Shown here piece after piece: positions 5,901 through 28,974 of a stretch of DNA of 64,000 bases. Every line of letters starts with the position of its first letter. Within the stretch, counting starts at the first letter, position 1. The DNA is from Candidatus Tectimicrobiota bacterium. GTDB taxonomy: Bacteria > Tectomicrobia > Entotheonellia > Entotheonellales > Entotheonellaceae. The notes under the pieces were generated by a model, which saw only the letters and a list, made by a program, of their open reading frames with translations, did no database searches and was not told the DNA's origin. Location of the stretch: NCBI GenBank assembly GCA_026005175.1, contig BPKO01000004.1, forward strand, positions 62,001 through 126,000, written 5' to 3'. The position numbers were made by a program, and so were the translations under genes.

Positions 5901-7922
5901 ATGCTCCTGGACGTGCGCGACCTAAAGACTTACTTCCGCACCAAGTGGGGGCCGGCGCGTGCCGTCGACGGGGTTTCTTTTTCCCTCGACGCCGGGGAGA
6001 CCTTTGCCCTGGTGGGCGAGTCGGGCTGCGGCAAAACCGTCACGGCGCTTTCCATCATGCAGCTGGTGCCGCAACCGGCCGGCTACTATGCCGGAGGCGC
6101 CATTCTCTACAAGGGCCGCGACCTGATGCGCCTACCGGAAGTGGAAAAGCGCCGGCTGCGCGGCCGCGAGCTGTCGATGATCTTCCAGGAGCCGATGTCT
6201 TCCCTCAACCCGGTGCTCACCATCGGCTACCAGCTCATGGAGCCCCTGCGCTACCACCAGCGGCTCTCCCCGGCAGCGGCGCGCAAGAAGGCCCTGGAGC
6301 TGCTAGAACTGGTGCGCCTTCCCGACCCCGAGCAGCGCCTGCAGCAGTACCCGCACCAGCTCTCGGGCGGCATGCAGCAGCGCGTCATGATCGCCATCGC
6401 CATGGCCTGCGAGCCGGGGCTGCTCATTGCCGACGAGCCCACCACCGCCCTGGACGTTACCGTGCAGGCGGAAGTCCTCGAGCTCATGAAGGCCCTGCAG
6501 GCGCAGAAAGGCACCGCCATTTTGCTCATCACCCACGACCTGGGGGTGGTGGCACAGCTGGCCGACCGCGTGGCCGTCATGTACGCCGGCCGCATCGTGG
6601 AAGTGGCGCCGCGCCCGCAGCTCCTCGACAACCCCGCGCACCCTTACACCGTCAGGCTGCTGCAGTCCCTGCCCACGCGCACGCGGCGCGACCAGGCGCT
6701 GCAGACCATCGAGGGGCGGGTGCCGCCGGCGCACGCCCTGCCTCCAGGATGCCGCTTTGCGCCGCGCTGCCACATGGTACAGCCGGCCTGCTGGCAGGTG
6801 GACCCGCCGCTTTTGCCCGTCGACGCCGAGCACCACGCCGCCTGTATCCTTTACGACGTAAAGCGCCAGGGCCGGCGCATCACCCCCGCCGAGGTGCACC
6901 TGCCCCCGCAGCCGCGGCCGCGCCCGCCCGGCCAGACAAGCGGCGAGCCGCTGCTGCGCCTCGAGGGCCTCTGCGTGCACTTTCCCCTGCGCCGCGGCGT
7001 GCTCAAGCGCGTGGTGGGTTACGTGCGCGCCGTGGACGGCGTCGACTTGACGCTGCGCCGCGGCGAGACCCTGGCCCTGGTGGGGGAATCGGGCTGCGGC
7101 AAGACCACCCTGGGCAAGGCGGTGCTGCAGCTCGTGCGGCCCACCGCCGGCCGCGTGCTCCTCGACGGCCAGGACCTGACGCGCCTCAGCCGCCGCCAGC
7201 TGCACCCTTACCGGCGGCGCATGCAAATCGTCTTCCAGGACCCTTACGCGGCGCTTGACCCGCGCATGATGGTGGGCGAAATCGTCATGGAAGGCATGGC
7301 AGCCCACGGCATCGGCCGCTCGCGCCGCGAGCGCGAAGAGCGCGCCCGCGCCATTCTGGCGCAGGTGGGCCTCGATCCGCAGATGCTTTACCGCTACCCG
7401 CACGAGTTCTCTGGCGGCCAGCGGCAGCGCATCGGCATCGCCCGCTGCCTGGCCGTCGAGCCCGAGTTTCTCGTCTGCGACGAGGCCACCAGCGCCCTTG
7501 ACGTCTCGGTGCAGGCCCAGATCCTCAATTTGCTGGAGCGGCTGCAGGCAGAGCTGGGCCTCACGTACCTCTTTATCACCCACAACCTGGGGGTGGTAGA
7601 GTACCTGGCCGACGAGGTGGCGGTGATGTACCTGGGGCGCATCGTGGAGCGCGGCCCCACCGCGGCCATTTTCTCTTCTCCCTGCCACCCCTACACGCGC
7701 GCCCTGCTGGCCGCCGTGCCCCGTCTCGACGCCCGCGGCGCGGAAAAGCTGCACTTGCCTGGCGAGGTGCCCTCGCCCATCCACCCGCCGCCGGGCTGCC
7801 ACTTCCACCCGCGCTGCCCTTACGCCATGCCCCACTGCCGCCAGGCGTATCCCCCGGCTTACACGGTGGCCGACGGCCACACCGTGCGCTGCTTTCTTTA
7901 CGCCGACAACCCGCCCGCTTGA
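5901..7922 (+). CDS. Fused DppD-DppF peptide ABC transporter ATP-binding protein
   Basis: A 673-residue protein with two complete ABC ATPase domains, equal to the separate DppD and DppF subunits joined by a linker. Domain 1 (about 1-325) has Walker [13 protein letters not shown], signature LSGGMQQRV and Walker [13 protein letters not shown]. Domain 2 (about 347-673) has [26 protein letters not shown] and [12 protein letters not shown]. Each ends with the oligopeptide/HPY tail containing a Cys cluster (CRFAPRC and CHFHPRC). It works on the cytoplasmic face of a peptide permease. No permease or binding protein adjoins it, but two permease sets without ATPases lie at 1-643 and 31083-34618. It may serve one or both. 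Confidence 0.93.
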
Positions 7923-28393: not shown

Positions 28394-28488
28394 GCGCTGC
28401 GGCGGGCCAGCGGGAAATATTTTGCCGGCGCGGGGCGTTTTCCCGACAGGCCGGACGCCGCCCCCTTGTAACCGCTGGAGGAGACCCC

Positions 28489-28974
28489 ATGGCACAGCCG
28501 CTCAAACCCGGAGATCTCTTTCCCACCTTCACGTTTCCCACGGTGCAGCACGGCACGCTCACTGTGCCGGCGGACTTAAGCCAGCGCTACACGGTGCTGC
28601 TCGTTTACCGCGCCCACTGGTGACCGTTTTGCCGTCAGCAGTTGGCTGACTACCAGGCACACCTCGAGTCGCTGGCCGCCCTCGACGTGGGGGTGGTGGC
28701 CTGTTCCACCGACCCTTTAGACAAAGCCCAGGAGACGGTGGCCGCCCTTGGCCTTACCTTTCCGGTAGGCTACGGCCTGCGCGTCCCCGAAGATGCCGAG
28801 CGCTTGGGCGCTGCCTGGGAGGAGGAACGCGGCATCATCCAGCCAAGCGAGTTTCTCCTCGACGGCCGCGGGCGCATCCTGCACAGCACGTACAGCAGCG
28901 GCCCCGTGGGGCGCATCCGCGCCGAGGACTTGCAGCGCCTGGTGCAGTTTCTCGAGCGCAAGCGCGGCGGCTGA
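28489..28974 (+). CDS. Peroxiredoxin/thioredoxin-fold protein with in-frame TGA, probable UxxC selenoprotein
   Basis: A 161-residue AhpC/TSA-like thiol oxidoreductase if TGA at 28621 is read as selenocysteine (residue 45). Before it come PGDLFPTFTFPT and YTVLLVYRAHW; after it PFCRQQLADYQ, VGVVACSTDPLDKAQETV, FPVGYGLR and a C-terminal FLLDGRGRILHSTYSSG. The active site would be U-P-F-C, the redox position of thioredoxin-like proteins; homologues have Cys at this site. Similarity continues without break across the TGA in one frame, so this is neither a stop nor a frameshift. A perfect 6-bp stem with a 5-base loop starts ten bases after the TGA, as bacterial SECIS elements do. TGGAGGAG precedes the ATG. 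SelA/B/C/D are outside the window. Confidence 0.85.
28621..28650 (+). promoter_or_regulatory. UGA codon plus putative bacterial SECIS hairpin
   Basis: TGA is at 28621-28623. GTCAGC (28634-28639) pairs perfectly with GCTGAC (28645-28650) around the loop AGTTG. Bacterial SECIS elements lie inside the coding region directly after the UGA and present a small G/U-containing loop to SelB at about this distance. The structure is seen; SelB binding is inferred. Confidence 0.65.

Follow-up and report, generated by a model that had tools for sequence, protein, structure and literature searches.

A peroxiredoxin-like gene with an in-frame TGA almost certainly encodes a UxxC selenoprotein in a Candidatus Tectimicrobiota genome

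The window analysed here is a stretch of 64,000 nucleotides from contig 4 of the Candidatus Tectimicrobiota genome G000 (3.99 Mb, 77% complete). The frame that runs from an ATG at 28489 to a TGA ending at 28974 is open apart from one internal TGA (28621-28623), around which the translation reads HW-U-PFC. The following features were assigned to the locus:

28477..28483, + strand: GGAGGAG, a ribosome-binding-like sequence 5 nt before the ATG (putative role, from sequence)
28489..28974, + strand: predicted peroxiredoxin-like (Prx-like) UxxC selenoprotein gene, 161 residues, stop codon within the coordinates, translated with TGA as U
28621..28623, + strand: predicted selenocysteine (Sec) codon UGA, residue 45, of the UxxC motif (TGA in L048-L052; Cys in L053, L055 and L056)
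28630..28632, + strand: codon for Cys48, the second UxxC residue (column invariant in the alignment; peroxidatic-Cys position of peroxiredoxins)
28630..28659, + strand: predicted bacterial SECIS element (from the fold, covariation and the constraints in Fig. 2 of PMC13188914)
28634-28639/28645-28650, + strand: SECIS apical stem, GTCAGC/GCTGAC, a perfect 6 bp
28640-28644, + strand: SECIS loop AGUUG (DNA AGTTG), from sequence and fold
28630-28633/28656-28659, + strand: short SECIS lower stem, from the fold

A preliminary description of this DNA had claimed a complete AhpC/TSA-like frame interrupted solely by a TGA at codon 45, and this is borne out by the translation together with a Pfam match that spans the TGA (AhpC-TSA, PF00578; residues 7-132, E 3.9e-19, 69.2 bits against a gathering score of 26). 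Redoxin was also matched (E 1.1e-15), and no NCBIfam model scored above its cut-off for the HW-U-PFC protein. The perfect stem with loop AGTTG, placed by the same description 10 nt after the TGA, was seen exactly so.

An AlphaFold2 model, computed with Cys substituted for Sec (pLDDT 92.9, pTM 0.89), puts the predicted active site at the N-terminal end of the first long helix (residues 46-57), and its best solved matches are peroxiredoxins (AhpC2/Prx6, TM about 0.83). In an active-site alignment that took in G000's own peroxiredoxins and TlpA-like proteins, U45 aligns with the Thr of the peroxiredoxin TxxC and with the first Cys of the TlpA-like CxxC, C48 aligns with the peroxidatic Cys of peroxiredoxins, and P119 aligns with the Pro of TlpA-like proteins at a position where peroxiredoxins carry the catalytic Arg. 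Pro119 is not retained where the relatives carry Cys; Ala or Ser stands at this position in them. The protein therefore has UxxC in place of TxxU and departs from the canonical peroxiredoxin pattern (PxxxTxxC plus catalytic Arg) at two places, with Sec at the Thr position and Pro119 at the Arg position. That it is a true selenoprotein working mainly as a peroxidase, not as a disulfide oxidoreductase, is a possible but somewhat doubtful reading; the peroxiredoxin fold and the position of C48 speak for it, whereas the replacement of the Thr of TxxC by Sec or Cys and the TlpA-like Pro119 speak against it. Because UxxC stands where peroxiredoxins have their peroxidatic TxxC, a selenol/thiol-disulfide oxidoreductase is judged from the sequence to be more likely than a canonical peroxidase.

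Relatives were gathered by scanning named genomes with this single protein as query. Six close relatives were recovered with 46-54% identity over the whole length, and alignment at column 45 gave either Sec (TGA) or Cys in the close homologues. Five of the six (48-54%) have TGA at exactly codon 45: one groundwater Deltaproteobacteria MAG, three Binatia/Binatota MAGs and one Defluviicoccus MAG. The sixth, from Ktedonobacteria brp13, has Cys in that column, as do relatives from Deinococcus aetherius and Mycobacterium kansasii. Searches of whole genomes brought up more TGA-bearing versions of the motif (GHWUPFC, GHWUPYC, SHWUPYC, GDWUHYC, GGWUPFC, GAWUPYC and GLFUPFC). Substitutions fall mainly at third codon positions, before and after the TGA alike; between L049 and L051, for example, the part downstream of the TGA differs by 1, 2 and 26 changes at codon positions one, two and three, respectively. 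This third-position bias past the TGA indicates that the downstream part is translated in frame.

Two side observations were made among these homologues. Prx-like UxxC genes occur as tandem pairs, each member with its own TGA, on two contigs (L061/L069 on G278:C240 and L064/L071 on G188:C20). On a plasmid of Deinococcus sp. QL22, Arg replaces Sec/Cys (DWRPFC) in a homologue with an apparent frame break (L054), which is probably a decaying copy.

The relatives weigh on two rival explanations. A pseudogene or sequencing error, in which a Cys codon (TGC/TGT) or another codon was mutated or misread to TGA, would be compatible with the window taken by itself, and Cys homologues do exist. An error at 28621-28623 is nevertheless made very improbable by the TGA found at that codon in five genomes that were assembled separately, and purifying selection downstream of it, covariation in the SECIS and a full set of Sec machinery (see below) leave a pseudogene with a negligible chance. 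The second rival, that the locus encodes a 44-residue peptide up to the TGA and a 110-residue protein from a TTG at 28642, draws on standard ORF calling, which yields the 110-aa ORF and splits the relatives likewise, as the preliminary description had anticipated for standard gene callers. Such a division would run through the active-site helix of what is a single conserved fold and omit the conserved PFC between TGA and TTG, and the Cys homologues are single uninterrupted genes, so that two separate proteins are scarcely credible.

Selenocysteine insertion at codon 45, the preferred reading, calls for attention to the hairpin that follows it. The published bacterial SECIS model specifies a loop of 3-9 nt with a G in its first two positions, a stem of 4-16 bp, a UGA-to-loop distance of 16-37 nt and a minimum free energy of at most -7.5 kcal/mol (PMC13188914). 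The window hairpin satisfies every one of these constraints, with a 5-nt loop that has G second, a 6-bp stem, a spacing of 16 nt and -12.9 kcal/mol. Its stability relative to shuffled sequences is modest (z -1.3 to -2.1), and an Rfam scan of the window gave no match at the gathering score. A comparable hairpin (6 Watson-Crick pairs, 7-14 nt past the TGA, a G among the first two bases of the loop) follows only 14 of the 1194 TGAs in the window. Across six sequences, 97% of cells were paired and three of the six pairs had changed on both sides, counts that are small given that four of the six are closely related; this signal was lost when the partner strand was slid. The most telling single case is the Defluviicoccus copy, GCCGGC-AGTTG-GTCGGC, and the Cys-encoding brp13 gene has no such fold. 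The hairpin alone would be weak evidence and becomes decisive because the TGA is conserved and the stem covaries in the relatives.

The genome holds all four parts of the selenocysteine machinery and so does not lack the means to decode the codon: selA (E 8.8e-192), selB directly after it (4.5e-117, above cut-off), a tRNA-Sec gene (selC) ∼7 kb away (76.5 bits, with the threshold at 47) and selD (2.3e-113; L015, G000:C9:120631-121554). The selD gene has one in-frame TGA of its own within the motif UASK, and UxxK is the listed motif of Sec-containing selenophosphate synthetase (PMC13188914). Three further AhpC/TSA-family genes in G000 each have one TGA at a catalytic position, with the motifs FTSLU (a TxxU peroxiredoxin, C3:28761), ATWUPTC and TTWUPYC (both TlpA-like). 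Their locations are as follows:

G000:C3:28244-29168: L084 and L087, neighbouring AhpC/TSA-family genes with TGA at a catalytic position (FTSLU and ATWUPTC)
G000:C2:284869-285201: L088, an AhpC/TSA-family gene with TGA at a catalytic position (TTWUPYC)

This gives at least five Sec-type genes in G000, namely four of the AhpC/TSA family, the window gene among them, and selD. A formate dehydrogenase alpha-like gene was also found in two adjoining stretches (L073/L079, G000:C1:406409-408452), with no in-frame TGA reported in either. When the window was scanned by codon usage for more in-frame TGAs, one weak candidate appeared at 7920, which resembles the genuine end of an ABC transporter gene and was rejected; the scan is unreliable as a negative because it also missed the selenoprotein gene at 28489-28974. 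That the TGA is read as some other residue (e.g. Trp) or by unspecific read-through has nothing specific in its favour and is extremely improbable, since the gene itself terminates with TGA, its internal TGA falls in a column with Cys, G000 carries genes dedicated to Sec and the hairpin is a SECIS.

Among the other genomes tested that have TGA forms, selA was present in all except G035 and G077, and in G001 as a fragment only. The two in which it was not matched are draft assemblies with TGA-bearing thioredoxin-fold homologues, and a congener of G077 (G347) has selA. It was not found in G051 and G195, whose relatives carry Cys at column 45, and was likewise missing from G012 and G023, two genomes that showed no TGA form; in brp13 and G266 selA is present and a TGA form was not seen.

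It is almost certain that the TGA inside the frame specifies selenocysteine and that this residue sits in the active site of a small redox enzyme of peroxiredoxin-like type, and the earlier claim of a genuine selenoprotein is supported by the machinery, the SECIS fit, the conservation of the TGA and the covariation. The AhpC/TSA label that came with that claim was right for the fold and is refined by the replacement of TxxC by UxxC. We regard it as very nearly certain that 28489-28974 encodes Sec by TGA through a SECIS, and that the product has a Prx fold with UxxC and belongs to the known Prx-like UxxC thiol:disulfide oxidoreductase family. In the proposed mechanism, supported at the insertion step by machinery, SECIS and conservation, SelB with Sec-tRNA would recognise the hairpin that lies immediately 3' of codon 45, so that Sec is inserted at the UGA, giving a 161-residue product with a peroxiredoxin (AhpC/TSA) fold in which TxxC is swapped for UxxC. 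U45 and C48 may then cycle between a reduced selenol/thiol and a selenenylsulfide, which is the most likely chemistry because of the alignment positions of U45, C48 and P119, and disulfides, or peroxides, would be reduced at the expense of thioredoxin-like donors.

The neighbours of the window gene give no indication of reductant or substrate. The relatives have mtnA-like and nagZ-like neighbours and the window gene has an mreB-like gene upstream, so no operon argument can be made. The Cys relative in Deinococcus aetherius adjoins an NAD(P)/FAD-dependent oxidoreductase and lies near a thioredoxin, a neighbourhood that is not conserved and that hints at thioredoxin-type reduction.

This is a known kind of selenoprotein, as a Prx-like family with UXXC instead of TXXU was already described in a Sargasso Sea study (PMC1088965), and a Prx-like thiol:disulfide oxidoreductase selenoprotein (PF00578, UxxC) figures among the high-confidence predictions of a 2026 review (PMC13188914, Table 1); the thiol-disulfide oxidoreductase function of that family is itself a prediction (PMC13188914). 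The window gene shares with it the AhpC/TSA domain, Sec in a thioredoxin-like UxxC, a SECIS after the UGA and the existence of Cys homologues, but is of an HW-U-PFC subfamily of ∼160 residues; the reference sequence of the known family is WP_010940744.1. The Sec-containing peroxiredoxins (PxxxTxxU) have the same fold, whereas Sec lies here at the Thr position and not at the peroxidatic position; the TxxU type in G000 is the separate FTSLU protein. With the TlpA/ResA-like UxxC selenoproteins the window protein shares UxxC and the Pro at the Pro119 position, but it is closer overall to its own AhpC/TSA subfamily, and G000 has two TlpA-like UxxC genes besides. Similarity to the SelL-related redox protein (NF040769) is weak (residues 20-84, 31 bits, far under the 120-bit cut-off). 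Tentatively, the HW-U-PFC proteins could form a separate, unnamed subfamily of Prx-like selenoproteins, scattered over little-studied lineages (Binatota, for one), with Sec as its common state and Cys as the rarer. A literature search for work linking selenoproteins to Binatota or Tectomicrobia found nothing relevant.

The window gene adds a member to the long-described Prx-like UxxC selenoproteins and leaves the general picture of selenoprotein function unchanged. A gene truncated by automatic annotation is now corrected, this genome is seen to have at least five Sec-type genes, and the SECIS, being conserved in Binatota relatives, can therefore serve as a model for finding more.
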